Shown here: positions 19,848-38,741 of the stretch, piece after piece
Numbering within the stretch: the stretch's first letter is position 1
Layout of the letters: the number at the start of each line of letters is the position of its first letter
NCBI RefSeq assembly: GCF_900105025.1
Contig: NZ_LT629759.1
Span: 1,240,001-1,304,000, forward strand
From: Parafannyhessea umbonata
Lineage (GTDB): Bacteria; Actinomycetota; Coriobacteriia; Coriobacteriales; Atopobiaceae
DNA: 64,000 nt
Direction: 5' to 3'
Translations under genes and position numbers: made by a program
Notes under the pieces: model-generated
What the model was told of the DNA's origin: nothing
Databases searched by the model: none
Seen by the model: the letters and a program-made list of their open reading frames with translations, nothing else

Positions 19848-22800
19848 AACCGTCCCCCGCGTATGCGGGGAGCACTCTGCCGCCACCATAGCGACGGCGG
19901 TGTTGTCGGGATCATCCCCGCGTAAGCGAGGAGCACTAGCCCAGCTTCAGGTTGTCGAGCATCGTGTAGGGATCATCCCCGCGCATGCGGGGAGCACATC
20001 GCCCGCGGGACGTCAGGCGCGATACAGCGGGGATCATCCCCGCGTATGCGGGGAGCACGGGAGCTTGAGCCCCGTGGCGGTGACAGCCCCGGGATCATCC
20101 CCGCGTATGCGGGGAGCACGACGAGACGCCGCACGTGACGCTGCCGATGGTAGGATCATCCCCGCGTATGCGGGGAGCACGAGCGACGCGATGGCCTTGG
20201 ACACATCCAATGCGGGATCATCCCCGCGTATGCGGGGAGCACAGCATCAAGGCCGGCGACAAGAAGAAGGGCGAAGGATCATCCCCGCGTATGCGGGGAG
20301 CACATGCCCTCATCCGTGAGTAGCTCCACGGCGTCGGGATCATCCCCGCGTATGCGGGGAGCACTTGGAAGGTGTCGGCGTTGCCGCCAGCGACGGCGGG
20401 ATCATCCCCGCGTATGCGGGGAGCACTTGCGCCACGCGCTCTACCTTTGGCGTGTACGAGGATCATCCCCGCGTATGCGGGGAGCACTCCAGCAGGTGGG
20501 TGAGCTGCCAGTCCGTGGAGGGATCATCCCCGCGTATGCGGGGAGCACATCGACGCGAAGGCCGAGAGTGAAGAGGAATGGGGATCATCCCCGCGTATGC
20601 GGGGAGCACACGGACCGCAACCCGAAGGCGACGGACCACTGGTGATCATCCCCGCGTATGCGGGGAGCACTGCCTTTACGAGTGGTCGAACGCCTTAGAC
20701 GCCGGATCATCCCCGCGTATGCGGGGAGCACCCAAATCCGCCCATATCGCCGCCGATTACGGCGGGATCATCCCCGCGTATGCGGGGAGCACGCTAGATG
20801 CCGATGACCGTTAGCTCGTAAATCGGGATCATCCCCGCGTATGCGGGGAGCACCACGACCTTCTGGCGCTCCAGTTCCTTCTTGAGGGATCATCCCCGCG
20901 TATGCGGGGAGCACTGTATGTCCTTGCGGTACCTCACCGTCACGCCGGGATCATCCCCGCGTATGCGGGGAGCACCTTGCCAGATGCCACGCACGATGTC
21001 ACCACCGAGGATCATCCCCGCGTATGCGGGGAGCACACTAGCCCGACTGGGGACGAGAGCTGCACGGCGGGATCATCCCCGCGTATGCGGGGAGCACTCT
21101 TGAGACTGATATAGTTCTTGCCAAATGACGGGATCATCCCCGCGTATGCGGGGAGCACAACGTCTCGCTTTCGAACGCGGTGTTCAACGAGGGATCATCC
21201 CCGCGTATGCGGGGAGCACGGAACGACCTTCGAAACCGCATCGGAAATGCCGGGATCATCCCCGCGTATGCGGGGAGCACTACGACAAGGCGAGGGCGCA
21301 CAAGCACGACGCAGGATCATCCCCGCGTATGCGGGGAGCACTCCTCCTGCGAAGGCTCCCCAAACTTTACCTTGGGATCATCCCCGCGTATGCGGGGAGC
21401 ACGTGCCCTCAAGCTCCGTAGTTGTAAACTCAACGGGATCATCCCCGCGCATGCGGGGAGCACTAGACGCCGACCGAGTCGGTGATCGTGCCGTCGGGAT
21501 CATCCCCGCGCATGCGGGGAGCACGACTCGCTTAAAAAGTTCGAGTCTACCATGAAGGGATCATCCCCGCGCATGCGGGGAGCACCTGACCTGCCCGTCG
21601 GAGAGGGCCTCGTTGAAGGGATCATCCCCGCGCATGCGGGGAGCACGGACACCTCGGCGGAGATGGACGACCTGCCGAGGGGATCATCCCCGCGCATGCG
21701 GGGAGCACGAGCCGAGTGGCTGGCACGACGGCGCGCTCGAGGGATCATCCCCGCGCATGCGGGGAGCACGAGCTGAAGCTGGTGACCTGTTGCATGTAGT
21801 CGGGATCATCCCCGCGCATGCGGGGAGCACTTGTACGGAAGGTTCTGGACGAAGCTCACGATGGGATCATCCCCGCGCATGCGGGGAGCACGCCACGGCG
21901 CGCTTGGTGATGTGGCGAATCGTGGGATCATCCCCGCGCATGCGGGGAGCACCAGAGTTCGAGCGCCAGAAGCTCATCCCCGAGGGGATCATCCCCGCGC
22001 ATGCGGGGAGCACTCATGCGCGACCAATGGGGTTCGAACGGATTCATGGGATCATCCCCGCGCATGCGGGGAGCACTCACCATGTCATATACGACGTGTG
22101 TGAATGTGTGGATCATCCCCGCGCATGCGGGGAGCACACCGACACCGGGGTAGATTGGCACGACCTCACGGGATCATCCCCGCGCATGCGGGGAGCACGC
22201 GCCAGCACGGCACACGCCTGGCGTGGCGTCCGGATCATCCCCGCGCATGCGGGGAGCACTGGACTCTACAACGGTTTCGTTCATCTTCTTAGGGATCATC
22301 CCCGCGCATGCGGGGAGCACCGCGTATTTCCCAAGTCCCAGAACCTTGTCTAGGGATCATCCCCGCGCATGCGGGGAGCACTTGTTCAGGAACTGCGAGC
22401 CCGCCCGCTGTGCGGGATCATCCCCGCGCATGCGGGGAGCACTCGGTGGCCCATGTCGTGGCCCATGAAAAACTGGGATCATCCCCGCGCATGCGGGGAG
22501 CACTGCGGACGTGTGACTGGGCGGGCGAGCGCATCGGGATCATCCCCGCGCATGCGGGGAGCACGCAGCCGCGCTCGTGGTGTCGCGCAGGCGGTTGGGA
22601 TCATCCCCGCGCATGCGGGGAGCACTCCGCCCCGGCGTCATGAGGCCACATAAGCCCGGGATCATCCCCGCGCATGCGGGGAGCACAGTGCGTCATCTGG
22701 ACGGACAGCTCCTTGCTCGGGATCATCCCCGCGCATGCGGGGAGCACCCAGAGCCGGTGTCGGTGATGCCGCCCGTAGTGGGATCATCCCCGCGCATGCG

Positions 22801-23174
22801 GGGAGCACATTGGAGACGTCATGAAAAAGTCGGACCTCACGGGATCATCCCCGCGCATGCGGGGAGCACTACACGGACGCAGAGCTTGACCAGATAAAGC
22901 AGGGATCATCCCCGCGCATGCGGGGAGCACTGGCGAAAGAGTGCGGGATAAGCCCCAGCGCTGGGATCATCCCCGCGCATGCGGGGAGCACTCATGTGCT
23001 CCTTCGTCGGATTGCCCCTCTTCAGGATCATCCCCGCGCATGCGGGGAGCACCAGAGCATCCTGAGCACCCAGACCGCCGCAGAGGGATCATCCCCGCGC
23101 ATGCGGGGAGCACCCACCCCGCCGCCGCTGCCGTATGCGCTGGTCGGGATCATCCCCGCGCATGCGGGGAGCAC
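19848..23174 (-). CRISPR. Type I-E CRISPR array, 55 repeats and 54 spacers
   Basis: A 28-base repeat recurs every 61 bases; plus-strand starts run 19848, 19909, 19970 ... 23147. Four intervals are longer (62 at 20215, 20399 and 21681; 63 at 22049). By repeat polarity (GTGCTCCCC...GGGGATGATCC on the minus strand) and cas position, transcription is leftward from the leader at 23,175. The leftmost repeat (19848) has a degenerate GG-side end and the second (19909) has TAAGCGAG substitutions, as expected at a trailer. Repeats 4-26 have CGCGTATG in the loop and repeats 27-55 have CGCGCATG. The base next to each repeat (minus-strand 3' side) is nearly always C, consistent with a PAM-derived base. 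Confidence 0.98.
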
Positions 23175-23308: not shown

Positions 23309-23668
23309 CTACCTGCCATACTTCCTGGCAGCCCTAAACTTGCTAGCGTTGCTCCAACCTGTCGGCGCAGTGCCAAGGAACTTCGCGTCCTCCGTTCCGT
23401 TTGGCCTCTTGATCAACTCCACGCCATCGCAGTCGACGGGCTCCCAGTCGGGCTGAAAGGTCCTGAACGCCAGATGCTGCTCATTGTCGGCCGAGTACGC
23501 CATAATCGCCCTACCGTTGCGGACCGATTGCAGGATTCTGTCCCACAATCCATCTCGAACCCTCGCAGAGACGTGCCCCACAAACACCCCCGGAGATATC
23601 TCCAGCAGCCACATCGTCAGGTCGCCGCGCAGTCCCACTGGGCAGGATGTCAACACAACCACGACCAC
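23309..23668 (-). CDS. cas2: CRISPR-associated endoribonuclease Cas2, type I-E
   Basis: This 119-residue protein has the Cas2e signature GLRGDLTMWLLEISPGVFVGHVSARVRDGLW. Cas2 bridges two Cas1 dimers during spacer integration. It uses a GTG start two bases after the cas1 stop, so the two are coupled. It is the last cas gene, followed by the leader. Confidence 0.95.
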   Translation of the reverse strand: MVVVVLTSCPVGLRGDLTMWLLEISPGVFVGHVSARVRDGLWDRILQSVRNGRAIMAYSADNEQHLAFRTFQPDWEPVDCDGVELIKRPNGTEDAKFLGTAPTGWSNASKFRAARKYGR

Positions 23669-23670
23669 TG

Positions 23671-24678
<1,008 letters not shown>

Positions 24679-24723
24679 GACGCCCCTCCCAATCAAACTA
24701 TCTATCCAGTTGTGCGACAGCGG

Positions 24724-25407
24724 CTAGCCAACGGGCATGATCGTCATGAGCCCGCAGCCAAAGCCCTTCGCCCTCCCGATGCCGTGACAGAGCGCCTGCC
24801 TCAGGAGCTGCGGGTCCTTCACGACCAGCGCGCCGTCAAACATCGCAGTGTCAATCGTGACCTTCGAGCCGTTGCGCCGGAACTCCTCGGCATGGCGCTG
24901 GGACACCACAACGGAGCTCGACCCGTCGGGCTCGCAGGCAAGCTCGAAGCCGTTCCGCGCGGAGCGCGCCTCGAGCCACTCCAGCTGCTGGGCAACCGTG
25001 ACGTGCCCCTGGATCTTGCCCACGACCGCGGGGTTGTCCCTTCTCCCCTTGTCTGTGGCAACCTTCCTCGCTGGGTTCGCCTTAAGACGAAAGCGCCAGA
25101 CCTGGCCAGCCACAAGCGCGTCCAGCACGGGAGCGTAATCCTTTGTCTCGCCCGGAGCTGCAGACGGCCAACCACATTGCTCCGCGATGTGCGAGAAGTC
25201 CGGTCGCTCTGGGCTGACGACGTAGAGCCAAGTTCCGCCGTGCTGACCGTACGAGTCGACCCTCCACAGGATCCTCCCCTCGTCGCAGTCCCTCGTCGTG
25301 CCAGGCGGAAACGCGTTCTCCACCGCGGCGTGCATCCTGTATGGGGAGGCCAGCAGCCTGGCGGCGTCCCTGCGCGCCGTGTTCAGCGGCAGTCTAGAAA
25401 TGTACAA
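24724..25407 (-). CDS. cas6e: Cas6e pre-crRNA endonuclease (CasE)
   Basis: The 227 residues begin LYISRLPLNTARRDAARLLASPYRMHAAVENAFP, the Cas6e start with the catalytic-region His, and end with the glycine-rich GIGRAKGFGCGLMTIMPV loop. It cleaves repeat hairpins and remains in Cascade. A TTG start at 25407 is proposed because it aligns with the family N-terminus and lies after GAGGGGAGGACGGACC. Longer frames would run into cas5. Confidence 0.93.
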   Translation of the reverse strand: MYISRLPLNTARRDAARLLASPYRMHAAVENAFPPGTTRDCDEGRILWRVDSYGQHGGTWLYVVSPERPDFSHIAEQCGWPSAAPGETKDYAPVLDALVAGQVWRFRLKANPARKVATDKGRRDNPAVVGKIQGHVTVAQQLEWLEARSARNGFELACEPDGSSSVVVSQRHAEEFRRNGSKVTIDTAMFDGALVVKDPQLLRQALCHGIGRAKGFGCGLMTIMPVG

Positions 25408-25423
25408 GGTCCGTCCTCCCCTC

Positions 25424-26155
25424 TCAGAAGAATCCCATGGGGTCGTGCGGGGGCACCGCCTCGTGCCTCCTGCCAGAGGCGGCACCCACATGGTCCGCGC
25501 CCGAAAGCTGCCCCAAAGGCACCCTAAAGCGATAGACGCCCCTGCTGGCATACGTGCGTCCCGCGCCGCTGAAGCTCACGGGATAATCCGTCTGGCTCTC
25601 CGCGGGATCGCCCTCGCGCGCATCGCACGCCACCTCGAGCTCGGACAGCCATCTGTGGTTGCGTCGATACCCCTTGGACGCAATCCAGGGCTCCGCCGCA
25701 AGCGCCTCCCTTACGCCTACGTACCGGTCAGTCACTCCCATCGAGGGCGACACATCGGGAGGGCAGGAGCGCCTTCCCAGGTAAAGCGGCCAGTGAGGGT
25801 TTCTGAGCGCGTGGTCGATGACTTCAAGCTGCTCACGAGGCCCAGCCAGCGCAACGAGGAACTTTGCGTCCGCAAGGTAGTAACGGTAGGAAAGCGGCAT
25901 CGACTTGCCCCTCCCCTCCGACGGCCTCTCGGTCTGGAAGTCGACCATCAGGCTGCCTGGCTGGTCTGCCCTGACGCCATACTCAAGCTGTGCCAGGTCG
26001 TCCAGGACATCCTCCCTCGAGCGTCCAAGAGCGGACGCCAGCATCCCCACGACGCCGCTCTTTGTGGGCTCCGTCCGCGTCGTCCTCCTCACAAAGCGGG
26101 AGGAGTCACCCCAGGACTGCATGGGCCCAGAAAGCCTCAGCAAAAGGACCGCCAT
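25424..26155 (-). CDS. cas5e: Cascade subunit Cas5e (CasD)
   Basis: This 243-residue protein starts with LLLRLSGPMQSWGDSSRFVRRTT, the conserved Cas5e opening, and continues with PTKSGVVGMLASALGR. Cas5e holds the crRNA 5' handle. Its ATG overlaps the cas7 stop (TAATG at 26153-26157). Confidence 0.95.
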   Translation of the reverse strand: MAVLLLRLSGPMQSWGDSSRFVRRTTRTEPTKSGVVGMLASALGRSREDVLDDLAQLEYGVRADQPGSLMVDFQTERPSEGRGKSMPLSYRYYLADAKFLVALAGPREQLEVIDHALRNPHWPLYLGRRSCPPDVSPSMGVTDRYVGVREALAAEPWIASKGYRRNHRWLSELEVACDAREGDPAESQTDYPVSFSGAGRTYASRGVYRFRVPLGQLSGADHVGAASGRRHEAVPPHDPMGFF

Positions 26156-27291
26156 TACTCCTCACCGGCCTGCACCACATCCAGCACGCGCGCACTGACT
26201 TCCTCGAGCATCTGGGGAATCGTCACCTCGCTGCCAAACTCGCGCAGGGCGTCGGTACCTCCGTCGAGCGCGCACCACCACGAATCCACGGGCGCGTCGC
26301 CGTACGCCTTCGAGAACTCGCCGAGCTTCTTCGCAAGGGCATCCTCCGCCTGATGGGAAATCGAAACCCCCTCACGCGGGGTGACCGGCTCCTCGAACGC
26401 AGAGACGCCGTTGACCGGCTGGTCATCCCTCAGCGCCACAAGCACGGCACTCGGCAACGTACGGTTCGCAAACGTGTTCTGCTTGCCCGTGGGCATGGAC
26501 CTCACAAATGCCGAGAGGAACGACCTCGCGCCCTCGGCAGTCGCCTTGGCATCGCCCAGCTGCTTGGAGAGCGAGTCAAGGCAGACGGTCGCATACCTGT
26601 ACAGCGTCGAGGAGTTGAAGCCGATGGTGTCGAGCATTGCCGCACCCGCGTTGTCGTCCGCGGAGCAGTCGTCCACTGCGGTGAAGTAGTCGTACTCCTG
26701 GGTCACCTTGTCGACCGATATGGCATGCGCCACCTGGGAGCTCGCGTCGGTGTTGAGGTCTGGGGCATCCGCAAGCATCCTGCCAAACAGCGCGATGTCC
26801 AGCGCCTGGGCACCGTGGAACGCGGCAGAGACCTTCTTCTTCAGCTCCTTCGTGGGCTTCGAGATGTCCTCCCCCGCCTCGTGCGCGTCTATCGCGATGC
26901 CCGCGAGCTTCGTGACCTCCGAGCGTGCGATGAAGATGAGGTACTGCGAGACTGTCGAACCCGCCTCGGAGCCCGTACGCGTGGACTTCTCGACCTTCAC
27001 GCCCGTTACCTGCAGAACCGCGCTGGCAAGTCCTTCCGCCTCGTCCGCAAGGTCAGGCCGCTGGGACTTGATCTCGTCGGCTATGAGGCCAACCGCGTGC
27101 TTCGTCCTCACGCCAAGCCCCTCGGGGTTCAACGTCTGGGCAAACTCCTCGCGCATCGCGTGCTTCCACGCCTGGCTCGAGACGCGGGAGCGCAGGTAGC
27201 CACCATAGATCGCAGTCTTGGGGGTGCCGGTGTCGTCCCTGTTGATGTCGCAAGGGGGAACGTTCTGGATTGCGTAGATGTCTAGGTACAT
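26155..27291 (-). CDS. cas7e: Cascade backbone subunit Cas7e (CasC/Cse4)
   Basis: This 378-residue protein begins MYLDIYAIQNVPPCDINRDD and GTPKTAIYGGYLRSRVSSQAWKHAMR, diagnostic of Cas7e. Six copies line the crRNA in Cascade. The start at 27291 is chosen over 27369 because the family begins here and GGAGGAAACC precedes it. It overlaps cas5e. Confidence 0.96.
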   Translation of the reverse strand: MYLDIYAIQNVPPCDINRDDTGTPKTAIYGGYLRSRVSSQAWKHAMREEFAQTLNPEGLGVRTKHAVGLIADEIKSQRPDLADEAEGLASAVLQVTGVKVEKSTRTGSEAGSTVSQYLIFIARSEVTKLAGIAIDAHEAGEDISKPTKELKKKVSAAFHGAQALDIALFGRMLADAPDLNTDASSQVAHAISVDKVTQEYDYFTAVDDCSADDNAGAAMLDTIGFNSSTLYRYATVCLDSLSKQLGDAKATAEGARSFLSAFVRSMPTGKQNTFANRTLPSAVLVALRDDQPVNGVSAFEEPVTPREGVSISHQAEDALAKKLGEFSKAYGDAPVDSWWCALDGGTDALREFGSEVTIPQMLEEVSARVLDVVQAGEE

Positions 27292-27302
27292 GGTTTCCTC
27301 CG

Positions 27303-27935
27303 TTACTCGTCCGCGTCCTTGGTTGCTTCTTTGTTCCCGTCCGCCGCCCTGTAGTAGTCCTGAGCCCATCTCATGAACACGGCACTTCGGGTCTCGTCAA
27401 ACTGAATCTGGAACAGGTCCGAGGCAAGCCTCCCAAAGTCAAGCTGGATCACGCTCTTGGATGCCTTCATCAGCTGGACGAGGGCTCGCATCGCGGTCTG
27501 CACCCCGTCAAAGTCGTTGGCTGCCTCGACCATGGCCATACGTCTCCGGACCCCCGGAGCGCCGCTGCCGTTCTTCTCCAGCGATATTGCTCGGCACGCG
27601 CTTCCAAAGGAAACGTTGCGCTTCACGTCCTTCTGGAGCACCGCGACAGGCACGCTCTTGGACTGTTGGAGCATCGCGTAGTAGCGCAGGGCTGCCTTGA
27701 CACTGCTCAGCCCCTTCTCCTCCTCGTAGGGACTCAACTCGGGAAATCCCTCAAACAGGTCGTCGCCAATGGACATCCAGGACGTGTCCCGCGACGTGCC
27801 AAGCCTTCTCAGGCGAGCGAGGCTCGCCCTCGACGACGAGAGCCCCGCCAGGTAGCCGGACTGCAGCTTCAGCACCTTCCCGTTCGTGCACGCGGCGATC
27901 GCGCTCGCAGACCTCTGTATGGACACCCCTCTCAC
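27303..27935 (-). CDS. cse2: Cascade small subunit Cse2 (Cas11e/CasB)
   Basis: This 210-residue mostly helical protein has SYLAGLSSSRASLARLRRLG and later SFGSACRAISLEKNG, matching Cse2. A dimer stabilises the R-loop. It has a GTG start at 27935 overlapping the cse1 stop (GTGA). Confidence 0.92.
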   Translation of the reverse strand: MRGVSIQRSASAIAACTNGKVLKLQSGYLAGLSSSRASLARLRRLGTSRDTSWMSIGDDLFEGFPELSPYEEEKGLSSVKAALRYYAMLQQSKSVPVAVLQKDVKRNVSFGSACRAISLEKNGSGAPGVRRRMAMVEAANDFDGVQTAMRALVQLMKASKSVIQLDFGRLASDLFQIQFDETRSAVFMRWAQDYYRAADGNKEATKDADE

Positions 27936-29653
27936 ATCCTCTCAGACTCGGCCGCATCCTCGTGCGGTCCAACCTTGCCCTTGCCTTCCTCGGCGGGGCC
28001 AGGCCCAATCACCCCAAGCACCTTGTTCAGCTCTGCGGACAGAATGGCCAGGGCCCTTCCGACCGTCATGGAGTCGTGCTCGTCAAAGTACGACCTATCG
28101 CTGCTCTCCACGTACTCGCTGGCTGCCGCGCGAATCTTCCGATGCACATCGTCCTTCCACGCCTTGCAGTACTTGCCAACAGGGTCGGTGCCAGAGGGGA
28201 ATCCCGCCAAGCGAGCCCTGCACATGCCATCGAGCTCCGAATACGCCAGTTCCCTTACGCGCGTCCGCTCCGACATCGCCACAGCCTTCGAGGACTTGTC
28301 CCCCGCCGCGCGCTGAATGTTCGACACGCAGTTGACAAGTTTCGACACGGCCTCGTCGGTCTTCTCGATGACCTTCAGAGCCTGGGTGCACTCATTGGAG
28401 TCGTGATCAAGAAGAGAAACGCTCAGGTCGAACCTGTCGTCAATGCCATCCGAGAACACGCTGCTCTGCGTTCCGTACTCCATGCCCTGCGTGTGAATCG
28501 CGACGGTAGGCATCGCGTCCTGCGAGATGACGTGTTCGTCGCACAGCCTCTCGAACCACCTTACGACGCCAGGACGCGGGTCCCTCCCACTGAAGGAGAC
28601 TATGGATGCGAGACCGCGCCATGCCTGCCTGGAAGGGTCGTGCGCCTGCGGCATGAGCGGTACGTAAGGAAGTCCCAGCTTCTTCTGCTGCGTCTGGCTC
28701 TCCCTCCACGCCGTCATCGGCTCCGACCCGCTGGCATCGATCACGCGGGGGATGTCGCCGTAGCAGCTCACGACGCCGATGACTACCGTTCCCTCTTCGT
28801 TGGGAACCAGCCGCATGCGACGGCTCTGCCACGTGTACGACTGCACGGGGCCGTACGGCTCCCCAGGAAGTGGGTCCCTGTGGTCGGGGGTCGTCTCGTC
28901 CTTCTCCCATGGCGGAACGTCCTCCTCGCAGCCAACTATGGGGACGCCGCTCCTGCGGTCGTCAAACAGCACCCAGTTGAGCATCAGGGTCTCGAAGAGG
29001 CTCTTACCCTCAAGGTAGATGCCACCTTCCGCGCCGAGCATGCCCGTACCCACGGCACCCTTAGGCGCATATGCCTTGCCGGCCTTGGCGCCGGAGTATC
29101 CCTTCACGGGAGTCTTGATGCCGGCGGTCGCGTAAGACTGCTGGAAGACAAGGCACCTTGCGGCTTCGGCAAAGCTCAGGCTCTGGAGCCTATTCCTGTC
29201 CCTCATGGAGAAAAGAAACTTCTCTTCCTTTGGTACGTCAGCCACCAGCTCGCCGATGCCATCTGGCTCCCTTCCGGCGTACTCGAGTCCAGGTACCTGG
29301 TAGAACGGGTGGTGCGCATCAAAGATGTCAAAGCGGTCGCGAAACGTGTCGAGGTACCCGTGGATTGCCTCCAGGTCGAAGTGCCCCCTCTTCCAGATTG
29401 CGGCCCACTCCTTCATCAAGGCCGACTCATCGTCGCCATCTGATAAGGGTTGCGAGCGATAGAGCACCGCCAGCAGGAGGCGAATAATGGGCAGCACTTG
29501 CTGAGCCTGGTCGCCTTCAATCTCTCGTATCCGCCCTGCATCACGCAGCGCCTCCTCCAGCGAGACGGCACCGAGCTTCCCGTCGATGTAGGCAACCGGT
29601 ATCCAAGGCTCGTCAACAAGGTTGAAGTGCGCCTCCCTCTGCAGATTCTGCAT
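27932..29653 (-). CDS. cse1: Cascade large subunit Cse1 (Cas8e/CasA)
   Basis: This 573-residue protein begins with AHFNLVDEPWIPVAYIDG and has DRFDIFDAHHPFYQVPG, both conserved in Cas8e. This subunit reads the PAM and recruits Cas3. ATG at 29653 has a perfect GGAAGGAGG site. It follows cas3 after a 199-base leader with repeat-like hairpins. Confidence 0.96.
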   Translation of the reverse strand: MQNLQREAHFNLVDEPWIPVAYIDGKLGAVSLEEALRDAGRIREIEGDQAQQVLPIIRLLLAVLYRSQPLSDGDDESALMKEWAAIWKRGHFDLEAIHGYLDTFRDRFDIFDAHHPFYQVPGLEYAGREPDGIGELVADVPKEEKFLFSMRDRNRLQSLSFAEAARCLVFQQSYATAGIKTPVKGYSGAKAGKAYAPKGAVGTGMLGAEGGIYLEGKSLFETLMLNWVLFDDRRSGVPIVGCEEDVPPWEKDETTPDHRDPLPGEPYGPVQSYTWQSRRMRLVPNEEGTVVIGVVSCYGDIPRVIDASGSEPMTAWRESQTQQKKLGLPYVPLMPQAHDPSRQAWRGLASIVSFSGRDPRPGVVRWFERLCDEHVISQDAMPTVAIHTQGMEYGTQSSVFSDGIDDRFDLSVSLLDHDSNECTQALKVIEKTDEAVSKLVNCVSNIQRAAGDKSSKAVAMSERTRVRELAYSELDGMCRARLAGFPSGTDPVGKYCKAWKDDVHRKIRAAASEYVESSDRSYFDEHDSMTVGRALAILSAELNKVLGVIGPGPAEEGKGKVGPHEDAAESERM

Positions 29654-29683
29654 GCATCCTCCTTCCATTAGATTGACGTCCAG

Positions 29684-29760
29684 CTTTCAGCCCCGCAGAT
29701 GCGGGGATCAAATCAACCCGTCAAGCTAATACGGGTCATCCCCAGACCTGGGTCGCCCCA
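29684..29760 (-). promoter_or_regulatory. Degenerate CRISPR-repeat pair in the cse1 5' leader (possible crRNA-like element)
   Basis: Read on the minus strand, 29760-29733 ends in GGGGATGACCC, 10 of 11 bases of the true repeat 3' handle, and carries a CCCAG/CTGGG mini-stem. A 21-nt pseudo-spacer (29732-29712) follows. Then 29711-29684 matches the array repeat at about 20 of 28 positions, with a perfect CCCCGCA/TGCGGGG stem (29691-29706). Cas6e could in principle process this. An independent terminator/attenuator is the alternative. Confidence 0.5.
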
Positions 29761-29852
29761 AAATCAATTGCCAATACACCCCCTCCTAAACTCGCTGGGG
29801 ACCAATCAGGTTCTGGTGCCATCTTATATCTCAACTATTATCTTGAAGTAAT

Positions 29853-32800
29853 TTATTCCTGAACGGTAGCCAATCCTCCGCGACGGGTATACCTCAGCCG
29901 TTTGCCAAGAAGCTCGCACTCATACACGCCGGGCTCCGACTCCTCCATGGGCAGCAGCAACCTCCCAGCCAGCCACGGCGACTCCTGCCAGCATCTCACG
30001 TAGTTCACGCACCCACGCTCAAGCTCCTCGATGCAACCGTCCAGTTTGTCTGTTGGGCAGATTGATATCGGGAGCCTGACGGCACACTCGGCAAGCAGCA
30101 GAGACTCCTCGCGCGAGGGCTCGCATTCCGTCGGCAGCACGGACCCTGCGGCAACGGACCCATTCCCCACCCAGGGGAGAAGGGCGATCTCGCCATCCTG
30201 CAGCTTCCTCACCAAGAGCACCTCGATGGTTTCCTGCGTGTCTCGAACGGCCCTGTTGCCGCGGTCGCTATCGCGTGGATCCTCGCCAACCGACATCTTG
30301 TCCGCAAGGTTCACGAGGGTCCAGTCGTTCTTCTTCGCATACGCAAGGTCCTGCAGCAGGCACGTCCGAGCACGTTGCACCTTTGCGTCGTTTCTCGCCT
30401 TCCGGTCGCGCTGTGCCGTTAGATAGGCCTCTCCCCAGCGCTCTGGTACGATCCGCTCGACCTGGTCGGAGTAGGCTTCCCGAACCAGATGGGGAATGTC
30501 GCGCGGAAGCAGAATGTCCGCCCCGGAACACTCGGTCGTCATCCCCAGCACGGAGAGGCTCTCCATGAGAGTCGCCACGTCGTACACGTTCGTCACGCCC
30601 TTGGCAAATGTCGGCCTTCCGCCATCGATCGCGTCGATGCCACGAACGTAGCAGCACGCCTCGCGCAGCATCTTGGGCCTCTCGCACTCGTCCTCTCCCC
30701 TCTTGTGCCGATGGGTCCTGCCAAGCCGCTGCAGCAGCAGGTCGATGGGGGCAACGTCCGTCACAAGCAGGTCAAAGTCGATGTCCAGGGACTGCTCCAA
30801 AACCTGAGTGCCCACAACAATGCGCGTATGCGGGCGCCGCCCATTCCCAACACTCGCGGCGGGACCAAGCTCGCTGCGCAGCACCTCCTCCGTACTCATT
30901 CGGTCAAGGTCGATAAACCTCGAGTGGTCCAGCGTCACAACGTCTTCGCCAAATACCTCGGCAAGGGCACGCTCCGCCTCCTGAGCACGCCCCACGGTGT
31001 CGCAAATCACTCCCGCGCATCCGCCGTCGCGCAGCCTATCCCGCAGCAACTCGACCAAGGTGTCAACGGAGTCGTCAATCAACTTCAGCGACACGGGCAC
31101 GCTTCGGCTGGATGCCTCCGCACCCACGCACAGGGCTTTGGTGCCGTCCGTATAGGTGATCTGGGGATACCCAACGTGCGGAACACTTGCCTTGGCCGGC
31201 GCCGCCGCTCCAGCTGATGCCGCCACGCCCTGCTTCTTCCTCAGGTAGGCGGGGGTCTTCGTCGCATGACGTTGCTCTCCTCCACCAGGCGCCGACGCCT
31301 TCTCGGACAGCCTTCTTCCCGACAGGTATGCCTCCACCATGCGCTCGCGCTGCCCGTCCGGAAGCGTCGCAGAAAGCAGCACCGTCGGGACCCGCCAATA
31401 GCCAAGCCACTGCAGGATCACATCCAGATACTGCCTCATGTACAGGTCGTACGCGTGACACTCGTCAACCACCACAGCCTTGTTGGCCAGCGCAAGCTGC
31501 CTTAGCGAGAGGTGCCTCATGTGGAGCGCGCCCATCAGCACCTGGTCGACGGTACACACAACAAAGTTCGACAGCATGCCCTTCTTCCGGCCGTACATCC
31601 ACGCGGAGACCGTCGCACCCTCAGACTCGAACTCGCGCGCATCACCCTCGCGAGCATTTCCCACAAGGCTCCTATGCCGCCGGGACTCCCTCACGAGTCC
31701 CTGGAACTCCTCGTTCAGGCCCGCCTTGCCGTGCGCAAGATAGATGTCCTTCTCCTCGAGGCTCCCGTCGCGCGGAAGCCTGTCGAGCCACTTGCGCACG
31801 CGCGCGAACATCGCGTCCGTCGTCGCCATTGTGGGCAGCGCCACGCAGACGCCGCCCAGTCCCCGGCGGTACGCCAAGAGCTCCGCGGCAACCAACGCGG
31901 CCTCCGTCTTGCCCTCGCCCATAGGCGCCTCGATCACCAGCAGACCGGGGTCCTTCGCATCCCATGCAACCTGCTCGGCAGCCCTTTGTATGGGCCTCGG
32001 CTCAATGCCGGCAGGCAGGCCAAACCTATGGCAGAAGAACTCCCCAAACGGCTCCACACAGGGCCTCTGCTCCGACCATGGCGCAGGAATATGCGCCATG
32101 GCCCAGGCGCGCTCCAGCCTGCGGCGCAGCGTCGCAACGTCCATGCCGTCGTCCACGTCGCAGACGTCGAGCAGCTCAAACAGGTCGCTATCGCTCGCCA
32201 GCCAGTCGCTGATGATCACCATACCCGTAAGCAGGCTCTCCACCGCAACGTCAAGCCTTAGCCGCACAAGGCGGCCAAGCCGCTCGTCGTCAATCTTCGC
32301 AAGCCACGCGGCATAGCCCACGAGCTCGTCCTGGGCTTCCTCCCAGGCCTCGTGACCTTCTCCGCCCCACCCCAGCGCGAGCAGGTCATGACTGCCGTCA
32401 CGCAAGCGCGTCCGCGCGGGAAAGTTCCCATGGTGGGCGCCAACGATGCTGGAAAGCGATCGCACCCCAGATGCTCCGCAATCCGGGGCGACGTGCCGGG
32501 CAAGGTACTTCTCCAGAATCAGCTCTCCGGCAATTGGATGCGTAGGGTCCCGCTTCCCCACCAGGTCACGATTCAGCACGAACCCCGCACGTTCGGGCTT
32601 CCAGGCTATGCCACGGTTATCGCTCCAGCCAAACGGCACGCCCTTCGCCTGGAACACCGGCGTCGCCTTCCCAACGTCGTGCGCGCCCGCGAGGAACACC
32701 AGAAGGGACCTGGCCAATGCTTCGTCCCCGCCATCCTCACCGCCGACCGCCCGAGCGACAACCTCCCTCGTCGCCTCAGGAAGCCAGCAATCCCACAGTC

Positions 32801-32933
32801 TGCCAGCCACCCCAGCGGCGTCAGCCAGGTGCACGTACAGCGGGAGCCAGCACTCACCCTCACCGTAATCCGACTTGCCCCACAGCGACCTCGCCGCCGC
32901 GGACAAGTTTCCAAACCCATCGGAACCCGTCAT
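29853..32933 (-). CDS. cas3: Cas3 nuclease-helicase, type I-E
   Basis: This 1026-residue protein has an N-terminal HD nuclease (GAHDVGKATPVFQ, H85-D86). A superfamily 2 helicase follows: Walker A APMGEGKTEA near residue 335, DECH near 492, LLSATLP and motif VI LLLQRLGRTHRH. Cas3 unwinds and degrades the target after Cascade binding. ATG at 32933 follows AAGGGACGAG. It is first in the locus and separated from cse1 by 199 bases, so may be transcribed independently. Confidence 0.96.
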   Translation of the reverse strand: MTGSDGFGNLSAAARSLWGKSDYGEGECWLPLYVHLADAAGVAGRLWDCWLPEATREVVARAVGGEDGGDEALARSLLVFLAGAHDVGKATPVFQAKGVPFGWSDNRGIAWKPERAGFVLNRDLVGKRDPTHPIAGELILEKYLARHVAPDCGASGVRSLSSIVGAHHGNFPARTRLRDGSHDLLALGWGGEGHEAWEEAQDELVGYAAWLAKIDDERLGRLVRLRLDVAVESLLTGMVIISDWLASDSDLFELLDVCDVDDGMDVATLRRRLERAWAMAHIPAPWSEQRPCVEPFGEFFCHRFGLPAGIEPRPIQRAAEQVAWDAKDPGLLVIEAPMGEGKTEAALVAAELLAYRRGLGGVCVALPTMATTDAMFARVRKWLDRLPRDGSLEEKDIYLAHGKAGLNEEFQGLVRESRRHRSLVGNAREGDAREFESEGATVSAWMYGRKKGMLSNFVVCTVDQVLMGALHMRHLSLRQLALANKAVVVDECHAYDLYMRQYLDVILQWLGYWRVPTVLLSATLPDGQRERMVEAYLSGRRLSEKASAPGGGEQRHATKTPAYLRKKQGVAASAGAAAPAKASVPHVGYPQITYTDGTKALCVGAEASSRSVPVSLKLIDDSVDTLVELLRDRLRDGGCAGVICDTVGRAQEAERALAEVFGEDVVTLDHSRFIDLDRMSTEEVLRSELGPAASVGNGRRPHTRIVVGTQVLEQSLDIDFDLLVTDVAPIDLLLQRLGRTHRHKRGEDECERPKMLREACCYVRGIDAIDGGRPTFAKGVTNVYDVATLMESLSVLGMTTECSGADILLPRDIPHLVREAYSDQVERIVPERWGEAYLTAQRDRKARNDAKVQRARTCLLQDLAYAKKNDWTLVNLADKMSVGEDPRDSDRGNRAVRDTQETIEVLLVRKLQDGEIALLPWVGNGSVAAGSVLPTECEPSREESLLLAECAVRLPISICPTDKLDGCIEELERGCVNYVRCWQESPWLAGRLLLPMEESEPGVYECELLGKRLRYTRRGGLATVQE

Positions 32934-33146
32934 GGTCTCGTCCCTTTTGCGCCCGCAAAGTCGGCGCACACGCCATTGCCAACTGTCCCCCTAGACTGTG
33001 ACACATCGAGTGGACATTAATTCGGGACGAGAAGAACTTCTCCGCGTCTGGTGGCGGCGGCAACTTCGGCCTTCGATCTTCTCGACATGCGTCGTTATGA
33101 CCAGCAGTACAGAAAGCTCGGCGCAGGGATCGTTGGACCTGTAAAA

Positions 33147-33183
33147 GCATCGGGACCAAGGCCGAAGCCATTGGTCCCGATGC
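33147..33183. terminator. Perfect 13-bp hairpin upstream of the IS30 element
   Basis: GCATCGGGACCAA pairs with TTGGTCCCGATGC around a 12-base loop. It could be a terminator; there is no T-run. 32934-33146 otherwise holds only the expected cas3 promoter region. Confidence 0.4.
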
Positions 33184-33205
33184 ATCGGCAACGCCTATTG
33201 CCTGG

Positions 33206-34291
33206 TGTGAATCCACACTCCGAGTGCAACGGAATATCGCAAGGTAGGCGGCCCATCGCCGTCCCAACATGGTGCTTGCGAACAGTCACGAGGAGGTGGC
33301 GATGGACCGCTACGGCCATCTTGGCATCACCGAGCGCGAGGATATCATGCTGCTCTGGCGCGACGGGGAGGGCGTCAGCCAGATCGCGCGCGAGATCGGC
33401 AGGGACAAGTCGACGGTGTCGAGGGAGATGCGCCGCAACGGCTGGGCGAACCCCAGGACGGACAGGCCCTCCTACCGGGCCTCGACGGCGCAGAAGAGGG
33501 CGAGGTGCCGCAGGCCGCACCTGCTGGACGACCCCGGGACCAGGGCGCTCGTGGCGCGCCTCGTGCGCGACGAGAAGTGATCCCCCGAGCAGGTCGCCGG
33601 CAGGCTCGCCAGGGAGGACCCCGTGCGCTCGGTGAGCGACACGACGACATGCCGCGCGATCGCCAGGGGCGACCTCGACCGGGAGATGCCGGGCGGCCGG
33701 CGCGGCGCTTCCTCAGGCACCACGGCAGGAGGCGCCACGCGTCGGGCAAGCCCAAGGGCGCGTACGGGGCGCACGTCACGCACGAGATGTTCGAGCGCCC
33801 GCCCGTCGTGGCGCGCAGGTCCCGCATCGGGGACTGGGAGGGGGACACCGTCGCCGGCTGCGAGGGCGGGGCGTGCCTGGTGACGCAGGTCGACAGGAGG
33901 TCCGGCTACCTCATGGGCGGCAAGGCGGCCCACAAGACGAGCGCCGAGGTGGGAGGGGCCACCATGGGCTCCCTCGCCGGGATGGTGGTGCGCTCCATCA
34001 CGGTCGACCGCGGAAGCGAGTTCGCGTGCGCCACGAGCCTGCAGGAGGGCCCGGGCGCGCCCGTCTGCCTCTGCGACTCCCACCAGCCGTGGCAGAGGGG
34101 CACCAACGAGAACACCAACGGGCTCCTGAGGGACTGGTTCCCGAAGGGAGAGGAGCCTCGACGACGTCACCGACGAGGAGGTCCGGGAGGCGTACGATTC
34201 CCTCAACCACAGACCCCGCAAGCGCCTGGCGTGGAGGTGCCCCTGCGAAGTTTACTCTCGCCGATCGTTGCACTTGCTGTGAGGATTCACA
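33206..34291 (+). mobile_element. IS30-family insertion sequence, inactivated
   Basis: Imperfect terminal inverted repeats are visible: TGTGAATCCACAC...AGTGCAACG at 33206-33231, and on the other strand TGTGAATCCTCACAGC-AAGTGCAACG at 34291-34266. They bracket a broken IS30-type transposase. The element separates cas3 from the HEPN/DUF262 pair. No clear target duplication was found. Confidence 0.75.
33302..34255 (+). pseudogene. IS30 family transposase, broken
   Basis: The N-terminal HTH is intact (LGITEREDIMLLW, GVSQIAREIGRDKSTVSREMRRN). A TGA stop then interrupts at 33578 (DEK*SPEQVAGRL). The frame later shifts to give the catalytic core RRSRIGDWEGDTVAG, ITVDRGSEFA and HQPWQRGTNENTNGLLRDWFPKG. 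A second shift restores DDVTDEEVREAYDSLNHRPRKRL. One stop and two frameshifts make it inactive. Confidence 0.85.
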
Positions 34292-34325
34292 ACGGAAACT
34301 GCTAGCGAAGACAGCGAATCGCTCA

Positions 34326-34874
34326 TTAATACTCTTTGCAAAGACTATTGTCTGCATCGCCTGAAGGCTTGAAGTAATCAATGAACCAGTCGGACACTTG
34401 TAAGGTAGCCCTGTAAAACTGAAGCGCTCTTCTTGGCGTTACATTGTCATTATCTCCATGGGCTATTCTTCCGCGTTCCTTAACCATTGAACCTATTTCT
34501 GCTGATAGATCAATTGTATCCTTTCCGTTTGCCATATAACTTAAAAAAGCTCCACTTGCTACATTTGAAATCGATGACAGGATTCTCTTTAGATTATCGG
34601 GGTTTGGATTCTGCCATTTCTTGTACTGACTACGGGCATAGTCGGAAACAACAGATTCAGAATGACGCTCAATAAAGCATAGTATGCATGAGCTGGAAGT
34701 AACCTCCAGATGTCCTGAGCAGCGAATGACGAGAAGCTTTGCAAGATTTGAGACAACATCATCGTTGCAACTCTCCCGCTGCTCCAGCAATGATTGTACA
34801 AGACACTCCAGATCATCGAGACGCTGCATCGATTGCCGGACTTCATAGGGTGGCCATTCTTGTACTTCTGTCAT
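34326..34874 (-). CDS. HEPN-domain protein (MAE_28990/RiboL-PSP-like), predicted RNase toxin
   Basis: This 182-residue all-helical protein has an RGRIAHGDND motif near the C-terminus, the R-x4-H signature of HEPN ribonucleases. An N-terminal helical section starts at DDLECLVQSLLEQRESCNDDVVSNLAKLLVIRCSG. Its ATG overlaps the stop of the DUF262 gene (TAATG at 34872-34876), so the two are translationally coupled. GC content is visibly lower than in neighbours, suggesting transfer. By family knowledge HEPN proteins often cleave tRNA or other RNA in phage defence; that role is inferred here. Confidence 0.72.
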   Translation of the reverse strand: MTEVQEWPPYEVRQSMQRLDDLECLVQSLLEQRESCNDDVVSNLAKLLVIRCSGHLEVTSSSCILCFIERHSESVVSDYARSQYKKWQNPNPDNLKRILSSISNVASGAFLSYMANGKDTIDLSAEIGSMVKERGRIAHGDNDNVTPRRALQFYRATLQVSDWFIDYFKPSGDADNSLCKEY

Positions 34875-35998
34875 TAGCTTAATGCCTTGCAAACTAATGA
34901 AATTCTTTTATGTACCTGAGCTTCATCCGAGGTAGCGCTGGTGACCGAATCAACATACTCTTTATTACGGTTAAGCCTATCTAATAGTTGGCGTATAGAA
35001 CTAGCATTAAGCCCATTTCCATCATGCAGTGCATGCATGCAGCCAATCATTATTGATTCTGCCCGCGCGGTATTTAACTGCTTGCGATCAGTCATAAAGA
35101 AAGGGTGTGACACATCGCTTGCAGCGATAATATCCGCTGTTTTATCAAACAGACCCAAGGCTGTTGTTAATTCAGACTGAGAGGCATCACGGTATTTATC
35201 GGCAAAGCTGTTGAGGAACCCCCCAAGGGGTTTCGTGTAGGACTGTTCCTCTAGATATAGTGCGATGATTCGTAATACCAACTCATGGTCTCTGAACCGT
35301 TTATTCAACTGCACGGATCCATACAGCTTGCGCCAGGATGGCCTAATATTTGAGCAGTCCACAAGATTCATCAGCTCGCCATTGTATAGTGCCATGCGAA
35401 TTTCATGTGGCGTAAGTTGCGTACCTCCAGAATTCAAACGCTTGAATACATCGTATACAGCATTTTTTGATTCAGGCCTGTTGTCCAGCACGATTACAGT
35501 GGTGGTAATATATGTGTTATCTATTATTCGGCGATATTGCTCCGGTAGTTCATCATATGAAAGGCCATCGAATTTCGATCCAGCTAGTCTAAGCCGGTAT
35601 TTTTTATCACCATTAAAACCGGAATAGAAACGCCTAAGCGTCTCAAGGCGCTGCTGGCCATCGAGGACAAGAAGACGCCTGTCTGCCTGCTGTACAAGAA
35701 ATAAACCCGGAATTGGATATTCGAGTAGAAGAGATTCAACGAAAAGATCCATTTGCTTTTTATTCCAAACAAATCCCCTTTGAAAGGAGTTGAGATCACA
35801 GACGCCCTGCTCTGCAGATGTCATTCGTATGCGAGGAACCAGAATATCTTTATTCTCCAGTCGGCCCACAAGCCCTTTGACATCAAAATCTTGGCTCCGA
35901 AACGTAATGGGTGCGGCCGCCGGCTGCGGTTCTTCAAGTTCTTCTTTTTCTTCGGGAGTAAGATACGTCTCGTCGCCTTCGTAATCAATGTTGGTCAT
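34874..35998 (-). CDS. DUF262 domain protein (ParB/GmrS-like N-terminal domain)
   Basis: This 374-residue protein has the DUF262 motifs: FQRGFVWNKKQMDLFVESLL, YPIPGLFLV and the active-site DGQQRLETLRRFY, followed by FKRLNSGGTQLTPHEIRMALYNGE. DUF262 is a ParB-like NTPase/nuclease fold used in GmrSD (modified-DNA restriction) and SspE (phosphorothioation-sensing defence). Here the usual C-terminal DUF1524/HNH nuclease is missing; the partner is an overlapping HEPN gene. ATG at 35998 follows GGAGGAGCCGA. The pair is AT-richer than the flanking IS elements. Confidence 0.8.
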   Translation of the reverse strand: MTNIDYEGDETYLTPEEKEELEEPQPAAAPITFRSQDFDVKGLVGRLENKDILVPRIRMTSAEQGVCDLNSFQRGFVWNKKQMDLFVESLLLEYPIPGLFLVQQADRRLLVLDGQQRLETLRRFYSGFNGDKKYRLRLAGSKFDGLSYDELPEQYRRIIDNTYITTTVIVLDNRPESKNAVYDVFKRLNSGGTQLTPHEIRMALYNGELMNLVDCSNIRPSWRKLYGSVQLNKRFRDHELVLRIIALYLEEQSYTKPLGGFLNSFADKYRDASQSELTTALGLFDKTADIIAASDVSHPFFMTDRKQLNTARAESIMIGCMHALHDGNGLNASSIRQLLDRLNRNKEYVDSVTSATSDEAQVHKRISLVCKALS

Positions 35999-36255
35999 TC
36001 GGCTCCTCCAGCCTTGTATTAAGTAGCGAATCGCAGAAGGCCGCTCAATGCGGATGCGGCTCTGAAATCTGAGCTACGAGCCATACGTTTGCCCCTCCAT
36101 CATTCTAACCTTTTGAATAGCCGACCAGCGTACGGACAGAGCATGCTGTCTCGGATGTGTTTAGTCAAGCCTGGCTTTCGGTTTTGAGCATGGATTTCTT
36201 TCGGGTCCGTGCACGAAAGTTTTTCGGGTTTCGTCACGGGCCCGCCGGCGCCTCC

Positions 36256-37020
36256 CTACCTTCCCGACTTCCCGAGCATCAGGCTCTCCTCCAGCCTGTG
36301 GCTCGGGCCCCCGAACTCCACGAGCCTGCCGTGGTGCGCGACGCGGTCGACGATCGCCGCTGCGAGCTTGTCGTCCGCGAAGACGGTGCCCCACCTGCCG
36401 GACTCGACGTTGGCGGCGGATATGACGCTCCTCCTCTCGTAGCTCTCGGATATCACCTGGCAGGGCAGCCTCGCCCCGTCCACGTCGAAGGGCGCGTAGC
36501 CGAATTCGTCCAGGACCAGGAGCCTCGCCTTGGCCACGTCGGCGAGCAGCCTGTCGAGCGTCCCCTCGCGCTTGGCCTTGCCCAGCCGCGGCACCAGCTG
36601 GGCCGTCTGCCAGAACCCCGCGGGGTAGCCCGCGGACGTCGCGGCGATCCCGAGCGCGGTGGCCATGTGGGTCTTCCCGCGCCCCGTCTGCCCGTAGAAC
36701 ACGAGGTCCTCCGCGTCGCGCACGAACGCCAGGGAGCACATGTCCTCGCGACCCCAGTCGTCGGGGAACGCCACATTCGACCAGTCGAACCCCTCGATCG
36801 ACTTCGGCACGGGGAACCTCGCCTGCCTGAGCAGGCGCGCCCGCTTCGCCCTGTCGCGGTGGGCGATCTCCGACTCGAGCATCGACGTGCATGCCGCGAC
36901 CTGGCCGGGCGTCGCGGAGCCGAGGAAGGCGGCGATGGTGTCGCCGGATATGAAGAGCGCCCTGGCGGCGTCGCGGAAGGCCGCCTGCGCGGCCTCACGC
37001 TCCGAGCTCGTCTGCGGCAT
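36256..37020 (-). CDS. istB: IS21-A helper ATPase IstB
   Basis: This 254-residue AAA+ protein has Walker A GQTGRGKTHMATAL, Walker B RLLVLDEFGYAPFD and the IstB end DRVAHHGRLVEFGGPSHRLE. It overlaps the 3' end of its istA and would regulate transposition. It appears intact although its istA partner is interrupted. Confidence 0.9.
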   Translation of the reverse strand: MPQTSSEREAAQAAFRDAARALFISGDTIAAFLGSATPGQVAACTSMLESEIAHRDRAKRARLLRQARFPVPKSIEGFDWSNVAFPDDWGREDMCSLAFVRDAEDLVFYGQTGRGKTHMATALGIAATSAGYPAGFWQTAQLVPRLGKAKREGTLDRLLADVAKARLLVLDEFGYAPFDVDGARLPCQVISESYERRSVISAANVESGRWGTVFADDKLAAAIVDRVAHHGRLVEFGGPSHRLEESLMLGKSGR

Positions 37021-37277
37021 GGCGGTCGCCTCCCTCGAGCAGCCTCAGCGCCCCGTCGTAGACGCCCAGGTCGACCTCCTCGTCGTACTCGATGTTGATT
37101 TTCAATAGGAACTGCGCGGATGTCGCACGGGGACCTGACCACCGTACGCATCGGGAATTGAGCAGTATTCGCATGGGGGCCGTGCCCGGGCCGCGCAAGG
37201 GGCACGGCCCCCGCTATGTTTCCTCCGGGCGGGATTGATGATGAGTCGGACGAGGCCCGCCCGGAGAGGAAGGAAGG

Positions 37278-38741
37278 ATGACCGTGCCCCTTGACACAAG
37301 ACAGGCTATCAGGGAACTGGACGCCGGTGGTGCGTCCAGGTCGCAGATAGCGCGCGAGCTCCATGTGAGCCGCAACACCGTCCGCAAGTACGCGGACATG
37401 GAGGACATGTCGCCGGCCGCGCCCGTGAGCGCGAGGCCGCACCCCGCGATCGACGCCGACGCCGCGTGGGTGGACTCCGTCCTGGAGGCCGACCTCGGCG
37501 CGCCCAGGAAGCAGCGCCACACGGCGAAGAGGATCTACGACAGGCTGGTGGAGGAGCGCGGCTACGCGGGCTCCTACTCGACCGTGTGCCGATACGTGGG
37601 CGAGTGGAGGCGCGGGCACTCGCGCTCCCCGCGCGAGGGCTACCTCGAGCTCGCCTGGGAGCCCGGCACCGCGCAGGTCGACTACGGGTCGTTCCGCGCG
37701 GTCGTCGCGGGCGTCCCGCGCACCCTCAGGCTCCTCGTCGTGACGCTGCCCCACTCGAACGCCCGCTTCTGCGTGGCAATGGAGCTCGAGAGGTCCGAGT
37801 GCCTCTGCTGGGGCCTGCGCCTCGTCTTCGAGTGGGCCGGGCGGGCCCCGCGCGTCCTCGTGCTCGACAACGCCACGGAGGCCGGGCGCATGCTCCGCGG
37901 CATCGTCACCGAGTCCGAGCTGTTCTCGCACTTCAGGGCCCACTACCGCTGCGAGGTCCGCTTCTGCAACCCGCACTCCGGCAACGAGAAGGGCTCCGTC
38001 GAGAACGCCGTGGGGTTCCTCCGCCGGAACCTGCTCGTCCCCGTGCCCGAGGCCGCCTCGGTCGACGAGCTCAACGAGGGGCTCAGGGCCGGCTGCGAGC
38101 GGATCAACGCCGGCGCGAGGAACAGGGCCGGGGCGCCCACGCCGGAGGCGCTCCGCGAGGACCTCGCCGGGATGCTGGCCCTGCCGGGCGCGCCCTTCGA
38201 CGCGGTCAGGTGGACGCACGCGCGCGCCGACAAGCGCGGCTACGTGCGCGTGGACGGCAACCTCTACTGCGTCGGGCCCGCCTGGCACGACCGCGAGCTC
38301 GTGGTGGGCGTGCGCGCCAGGTCGGTCGAGGTCCTCGCCGACCGGGGCAGGCGCGTCGCCACGCTCGCGCGCAGCTTCGGTGAGGGCGAGACCGTGAGGA
38401 ACCCGGCGTCGCTGATCCCGGCGCTGGTGGCGAGGCCGAGGGCCTTCGGGGAGTCGACCATCAGGCGCGACATGCCCGGGGCGCTCGTGGGAGAGCTCGA
38501 CCGCTGCGACAAGGCCGGGAGGAGGAAGGCCCTCAGGGCGATAGGGAGGGCGTCCGAGCACTCCGGCTTCGGCGCCGCCTGCGAGGCGGCCGCGAGGATC
38601 TTCGCGGGCGGCAGGGTCCCGGACGACGCGTCCTGCGACGCGCTCGCGAGGCGCGTGGCCGCGGGCGGCCCCGAGCCGGGGCAGGCCGACCTCGCCGTCT
38701 ACGACGGCTTCCTCGGGGAGGCGGCGCGGGATGCAGAGTAG
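37278..38741 (+). CDS. istA: IS21-B transposase IstA, copy 1
   Basis: This 487-residue transposase has HTH ASRSQIARELHVSRNTVRKYA and DDE core residues in AQVDYGSFRA, VLDNATEAG and HSGNEKGSVENAVG. GGAAGGAAGG lies before the ATG. A GCCGTGCCC/GGGCACGGC hairpin lies upstream. The end overlaps istB by 11 bases. It appears intact. Confidence 0.95.
   Translation: MTVPLDTRQAIRELDAGGASRSQIARELHVSRNTVRKYADMEDMSPAAPVSARPHPAIDADAAWVDSVLEADLGAPRKQRHTAKRIYDRLVEERGYAGSYSTVCRYVGEWRRGHSRSPREGYLELAWEPGTAQVDYGSFRAVVAGVPRTLRLLVVTLPHSNARFCVAMELERSECLCWGLRLVFEWAGRAPRVLVLDNATEAGRMLRGIVTESELFSHFRAHYRCEVRFCNPHSGNEKGSVENAVGFLRRNLLVPVPEAASVDELNEGLRAGCERINAGARNRAGAPTPEALREDLAGMLALPGAPFDAVRWTHARADKRGYVRVDGNLYCVGPAWHDRELVVGVRARSVEVLADRGRRVATLARSFGEGETVRNPASLIPALVARPRAFGESTIRRDMPGALVGELDRCDKAGRRKALRAIGRASEHSGFGAACEAAARIFAGGRVPDDASCDALARRVAAGGPEPGQADLAVYDGFLGEAARDAE

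Follow-up and report, generated by a model that had tools for sequence, protein, structure and literature searches.

A degenerate repeat pair between cas3 and cse1 as a putative CreR-type guide for self-repression of type I-E Cascade in Coriobacteriia and Bifidobacterium

A pair of degenerate CRISPR repeats (psiR1 and psiR2) enclosing a short pseudo-spacer is located between cas3 and cse1 of a type I-E CRISPR-Cas locus in Parafannyhessea umbonata, within a window of 64,000 nt, the whole stretch of DNA that was analysed. This element, designated creR, is very likely a CreR-type mini-CRISPR, the guide of which would let Cascade repress its own operon. At the sequence level the reading is backed by the anatomy of the element, its conservation, the PAM, guide–target co-variation and covariation of a hairpin, and from these we infer a promoter in the window, transcription of the element, processing by Cas6e, loading, repression, non-cleavage and release. 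An autoregulatory guide in an actinobacterial type I-E locus had been put forward in the initial annotation, and it is strongly supported by conservation, guide–target co-variation and the PAM. CreR, or cas-regulating RNA, was reportedly described by Liu et al. in 2023 (Cell Host Microbe 31:1481).

The genome holding the window is a single contig of 2.35 Mb. The type I-E locus is complete and lies on the minus strand in the order cas3, cse1, cse2, cas7e, cas5e, cas6e, cas1e and cas2e, followed by a CRISPR array (Table 1), each cas gene scoring above an NCBIfam model cut-off. The distance from the cas3 stop codon to the likely start of cse1, the first gene of the Cascade operon and the proposed target of repression, is about 200 nt. 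An Rfam scan of the window gave one match only, to a tRNA elsewhere, and none at the element. Transposase-like open frames (IS30- and IS21-like, by eye) are present upstream of cas3, at 33,095-41,130.

Table 1. Features of the type I-E locus, creR and its putative target, numbered from the first letter of the window
Feature	Positions	Strand	Remarks
cas3	29,853-32,969	-	TIGR01587 and TIGR01596 above cut-off; stop codon next to the target
Target	29,833-29,835 (PAM AAC) and 29,836-29,848 (protospacer)	+	protospacer TATTATCTTGAAG; 11/13 match to the guide
Possible -10 box TATAAG of a creR-cse1 promoter	29,823-29,828	-	4 nt from the PAM; weak candidate assignment
psiR1, degenerate first repeat	29,733-29,760	-	16/28 identical to the array repeat; hairpin decayed
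Pseudo-spacer (guide), 20 nt	29,712-29,731	-	starts TATTAGCTTGACG (13-mer at 29,719-29,731)
psiR2, degenerate second repeat	29,684-29,711	-	20/28 identical to the array repeat; hairpin at 29,691-29,706
cse1 (casA)	27,932-29,653	-	TIGR02547, 168.8 bits, above cut-off (scanned as 27,932-29,668)
cse2, cas7e, cas5e, cas6e	24,724-27,935	-	TIGR02548, TIGR01869, TIGR01868 and TIGR01907, all above cut-off
cas1e and cas2e	23,309-24,696	-	TIGR03638 and TIGR01873 above cut-off
Canonical CRISPR array, 54 repeats	19,909-23,174	-	repeat GTGCTCCCCGCAT[A/G]CGCGGGGATGATCC

Comparison with the array repeat confirmed that two repeat-like elements lie in array orientation between cas3 and cse1, as had been noticed initially. 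When the gap was shuffled 1000 times with its dinucleotides preserved, the best 28-mer matched the array repeat at 14.3 positions on average and never at more than 18. The identity of psiR2 (20/28) is therefore beyond chance, and the overall identity of psiR1 (16/28) is within the shuffle range, so that psiR1 is recognised by its handle, its place and its conservation. The features that have been kept are just those that one crRNA needs. psiR1 retains the crRNA 5′ handle, ATGACCCG at 29,732-29,739, and the 10/11 match reported for it could be reproduced (GGGGATGACCC versus GGGGATGATCC); psiR2 has kept the hairpin, which would be bound by Cas6e, and has lost the handle that follows. The psiR2 hairpin is thus present as first described, but the 'perfect 7 bp' stem ascribed to it needs a 2-nt loop, and RNA folding gave 6 bp with a 4-nt loop. 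The pseudo-spacer is 21 nt long, as reported, or 20 nt if the eighth handle base is counted as handle. This pair differs from a canonical type I-E array, with its near-identical 28-29 nt repeats at a spacing of 61 nt, in the divergence of its two repeats and in its 20-21 nt spacer; the 54 repeats of the real array are near-identical. What is found instead is the arrangement of a CreR, two degenerate repeats around a pseudo-spacer, close to cas genes and outside the array.

Repeats as degenerate as these, with psiR1 within chance, might also be the remnant of a decayed array or an ordinary attenuator hairpin, without a guide function. In keeping with this, the leader fold (29,669-29,770) is not unusually stable (z -1.60), and a sigma70 consensus scan of 29,600-29,950 called neither a promoter nor a terminator. 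A remnant or attenuator is nevertheless extremely unlikely in view of the relatives described below, in which the place and anatomy of the element are conserved in 27 loci, the guides co-vary with their targets and the hairpin covaries.

Evidence on the PAM that is independent of the element came from the array. The base after the 28-nt array repeat is C in 45/54 copies and T in 6/54 (51/54 together); the corresponding base in E. coli comes from the PAM. When phage records were searched with the array, 163 of them matched, and the protospacers of two array spacers (19,937-19,969 and 20,363-20,398) are preceded by AAC in all three records read (L114-L116), in a tape-measure gene. These phage matches are weak (E 2e-4 to 2e-2) and the phages infect other hosts, so that the matched sequences can at most be homologues of the true sources. 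Taken with this reservation, base 29 of the array and the spacer-matched phage protospacers point to AAC as the probable PAM. The array repeats vary at one loop base, which is G in 30/54 and A in 24/54; it is G in the six copies inspected at the cas2 side and A in most of the eight inspected at the far end.

The guide in the window has an AAC-flanked partner next to the cas3 stop codon (Table 1). When all guide-like pairs in the gap were scanned with positions 6 and 12 ignored, the guide TATTAGCTTGACG and the site TATTATCTTGAAG formed the top pair, and positions 6 and 12 are the only mismatches among the first 13. The PAM plus the site, with these two positions left free, matched the genome once, at this site. 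An AAC- or AAT-flanked site without mismatches at the other 11 positions was obtained in 0/5000 dinucleotide shuffles of the gap, two shuffles having one mismatch. When the PAM was ignored and all 13 positions were counted, 5/2000 shuffles equalled the two mismatches of the window, and over the first 14 nt, again ignoring the PAM, the target ties with another site at three mismatches. The case made by the window is thus strong through the PAM and the register, and the relatives settle the question. As in a CreR, the guide has partial complementarity to a site that carries a PAM and lies immediately upstream of the cognate cas operon. A different partner had been named initially, GTATTGGC at 29,770-29,777 on the minus strand. 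This sequence is present, but 7/8 matches such as this are expected about 0.2 times in the gap by simple arithmetic, and it was rejected because it has no AAC/AAT PAM and is far outscored by the site at 29,833-29,848.

Cse1 homologues were found in 33 of the 395 genomes of the order, 31 of them with loci (G382 and G233 added no new loci), and 80 loci were kept from a named collection including Olsenella, Parafannyhessea, Thermophilibacter, Collinsella, Enorma and Bifidobacterium. The loci were obtained by an alignment query of contigs, a first contig scan with a single-protein query having found nothing, and records of the same genomes as L003-L013 and L019-L026 were counted once. The element was called by a rule that requires the handle NTGNNCCN and a downstream hairpin and ignores the target; the rule was composed after relatives and targets had been inspected by eye. 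Among 40 loci examined (31 of the order and nine of Bifidobacterium), 25 were called by this rule, and L020 and L022 were added on widening the spacer length, giving 27/40. These comprise 20/31 loci of the order, all from Coriobacteriia, and 7/9 Bifidobacterium loci. Within the order, the positive loci are exactly the 20 with a Cse1 of 44% or more identity to that of the window, and the rule failed in the other 11 (L014-L018 and L027-L032) and in Bifidobacterium L043 and L044. L027 has a long gap with a handle-like piece, as judged by eye. Two candidates were present in L053, of which the one with the handle ATGACCCT was taken. The guide is about 20-21 nt long in most loci; the creR spacers of L020 and L022 (Collinsella) are about 32-33 nt, not about 20 nt.

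Handle base -5, which is outside the rule, is A in 24/27 loci. In an alignment of 26 loci, from which L025 was omitted because its second repeat has another sequence, the psiR2 hairpin is paired in 99.4% of cells compared with at most 60.3% in slid versions, a percentage favoured by construction, since the hairpin is part of the finding rule and the anchor was set to maximise pairing. The evidence for the hairpin is for this reason not the percentage but the double-sided changes, which were seen at 4/6 pairs (16 cells). The sequence 3′ of psiR2 is not conserved in the relatives, as expected if nothing downstream is used.

The initial annotation had suggested aligning the cas3-cse1 gaps of related loci for covariation and a conserved pseudo-spacer. 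The anatomy and the hairpin covariation were indeed found in the relatives, but the pseudo-spacer sequence differs between them, with 25 distinct 8-mers among the 27 guides and a median pairwise identity of 4/13. Each of the 27 guides nevertheless has an AAC- or AAT-flanked partner that lies in the cas3-cse1 gap of the same locus or at its border. When the PAM was ignored, the best 14-nt match was an antisense-strand site after AAC (21 loci) or AAT (five loci) in 26/27 loci; the window is the locus where such a site ties, and L023 too has a second site with equal mismatches. When the PAM was required, the numbers of mismatched loci at positions 1 to 20 were 0, 1, 4, 0, 0, 19, 0, 0, 7, 3, 4, 16, 3, 7, 7, 12, 10, 18, 12 and 14. 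Position 6 is thus mismatched in 19/27 loci and position 12 in 16/27, and positions 1, 4, 5, 7 and 8 in 0/27. Together, positions 6 and 12 are mismatched in 35/54 cases versus 22/297 for the remaining positions up to 13 (Fisher p=8e-20, a nominal value, as the loci are related). The sites had been picked by total mismatches over positions 1-13, so that their choice is not biased toward mismatches at 6 or 12. The match rates at these two positions, 8/27 and 11/27, are fairly near the 1/4 that unconstrained bases would give. In the type I-E Cascade of E. coli, every sixth base is flipped out and unpaired, according to the accessible part of PMC5904413.

The pairing is specific to each locus. At most one mismatch outside positions 6 and 12 was found for 23/27 guides in their own loci compared with 7/702 swapped guides, and for 0/270 comparisons of the guides with ten loci lacking creR (L017 omitted). 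A pair scan blind to positions 6 and 12 ranked the guide and its AAC/AAT-flanked site first in 14/20 Coriobacteriia loci with the element; among the 11 loci without it, one, L018, likewise gave an AAC-flanked pair at the top, with two mismatches. A mismatch at seed position 3 is common to four Coriobacteriia guides (L010, L011, L013 and L026). In L010/L049 (Thermophilibacter mediterraneus) it is accompanied by one TAG in the cse1 match, and this locus is possibly decaying.

Two layouts were found. In the seven Bifidobacterium loci (L041, L042, L045, L046, L047, L053 and L081), creR precedes the target, which matches 17-19 of the 20 guide bases, and the PAM end of the target is 68-83 nt downstream of the first base of the guide. 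The layout is reversed in the 20 Coriobacteriia loci, where the target comes first and the guide begins 22-163 nt after it. In Bifidobacterium, a hexamer with at least 4/6 matches to TATAAT, including A2 and T6, starts 21 nt after the PAM in 7/7 loci, and in 6/7 the PAM is overlapped by a -35 element matching at 5/6 or better, with 17-nt spacing (read from the sequences); the target there clearly appears to adjoin a sigma70-like cas promoter. In Coriobacteriia, a -10-like hexamer of at least 4/6 is found 4 nt from the PAM in 8/20 loci, but an offset of -1 also gives 8/20, and the -10 assignment is weak. Because creR is downstream of the target in Coriobacteriia, a shared promoter and joint repression of the guide and the Cascade mRNA are probable; the guide and the Cascade genes would then be on one shared, repressed transcript.

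These layouts also bear on the idea that the element is a Cas6e-binding hairpin in the cse1 leader, such that cutting or occupying the mRNA sets Cascade expression with no role for a guide. The covariation of the psiR2 hairpin and its position between the target and cse1 in the 20 Coriobacteriia loci would suit such a hairpin. However, it would be left unexplained why the psiR1 handle is conserved, why the guide matches are flanked by a PAM and why mismatches fall at positions 6 and 12, and in the seven Bifidobacterium loci the element is upstream of the apparent promoter and not in a leader, which makes this explanation improbable. Action of Cas6e on the mRNA may instead be a side effect of creR.

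In the mechanism proposed for the CreR-type guide, Cas6e would use the psiR2 hairpin to cut the transcript, and the 5′ handle would come from the psiR1 side. The product would be a short RNA resembling a crRNA, its guide about 20 nt long. This RNA would load into Cascade, and with about 11 bp (positions 1-5, 7-11 and 13) the complex would bind the site with the AAC PAM (29,833-29,848), which lies between cas3 and the leader of creR and cse1. Neither the extent of this pairing nor the length of the guide would be enough to license cleavage by Cas3, so that Cascade is proposed to act as a repressor; when bound, it would block transcription of the cse1-cse2-cas7-cas5-cas6 operon. Repression would ease in the presence of abundant ordinary crRNAs or of an anti-CRISPR that disables Cascade. 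For E. coli Cascade, PMC5904413 states in the part available that a 5 bp seed plus the PAM is enough for binding, and cites work in which six PAM-distal mismatches greatly reduced promoter repression. Given the latter loss, repression with 11-13 bp may be weak.

A fuller picture is offered tentatively, with somewhat less than even confidence. In Coriobacteriia, creR would lie within the 5′ leader of the operon that it represses, so that guide and effector would come from one promoter and both would shut it off, and excision by Cas6e would also trim the Cascade mRNA. The 27 co-evolving pairs would then be a natural record of the Cascade positions needed for repression (1, 2, 4, 5, 7 and 8, then 10, 11 and 13), with 6 and 12, and perhaps 18, drifting almost freely.

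RNA-guided self-repression is an already known kind of regulation, and the element described here would be a further case, with an unusually clear evolutionary footprint. CreRs mediate autorepression in types I-B, I-E and V-A through partial promoter complementarity, according to the available portions of PMC13131331 and PMC12737573; the former, a review, does not fit the initial view that CreA and CreR are described mainly in I-B/I-F-like settings. By its anatomy and target, the present element can be filed as a putative CreR: its RNA would be crRNA-like, and its guide is partly complementary to a PAM-flanked site at a cas operon. The AAC/AAT PAM, the unconstrained positions 6 and 12 and the two layouts are documented for the present element. 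A short guide is also found in truncated-spacer crRNAs, which are engineered and of type I-B: in Haloarcula hispanica, a 24-bp spacer repressed its target gene while interference and primed adaptation were gone, as stated in the part of PMC10989794 consulted.

CreA, from haloarchaeal CreTA, is likewise a degenerate repeat pair that guides Cascade to repress transcription (PMC9458426, in part). The repeat anatomy is the same, with psiR1 more diverged than psiR2, and an addiction module in which the guide represses a small toxin gene, instead of or besides the cas genes, could be considered on this ground. However, the target of CreA is a toxin gene, whereas the target here is the cas3-cse1 gap. 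The interval from target to guide is 22 nt in L009 and 39 nt in L008, with no room for a conserved small gene, and judged by these intervals there is no toxin gene under the targeted promoter in these two loci. Such a module is very improbable. Mimicry of CRISPR repeats is also a feature of phage solitary-repeat RNA anti-CRISPRs (Racrs; PMC10651486, in part), and capture of one could account for this likeness. The chance of this is negligible, as the present element has two repeats, a guide that matches the adjoining gap and the same place in 27 cas loci.

No description of the element in Coriobacteriia or Bifidobacterium was found in titles and abstract openings of the published literature, searched mostly where it is open without subscription, and it is not claimed to be unpublished. 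As a CreR, the element would add loci of Coriobacteriia and Bifidobacterium to the examples of type I-E Cascade repressing itself through an RNA guide, and its proposed target is specific and can be tested. From evolution alone, the linked changes in guide and target would expose the flipped-out positions of Cascade, and they would provide a natural measure of the small amount of pairing that regulation retains.

The combination of handle and hairpin used here is a simple route to further cases. A stricter version of the rule, applied to 111 loci with the remaining collection loci among them, was passed by 28, duplicates from the same genome included. L060 (Nocardioides albidus) passed but was dropped, its gap from the upstream open frame to cse1 holding a long perfect palindrome and not creR. 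Another 20 loci were inspected, in 14 of which the upstream open frame is less than 75 nt away; the remaining six (L124, L129, L134, L136, L137 and L138) were read by eye only, and L141 and L142 were left out. The gaps of L138 and L067, from other actinobacteria, contain repeat-like hairpins upstream of cse1 that may be further creR candidates.
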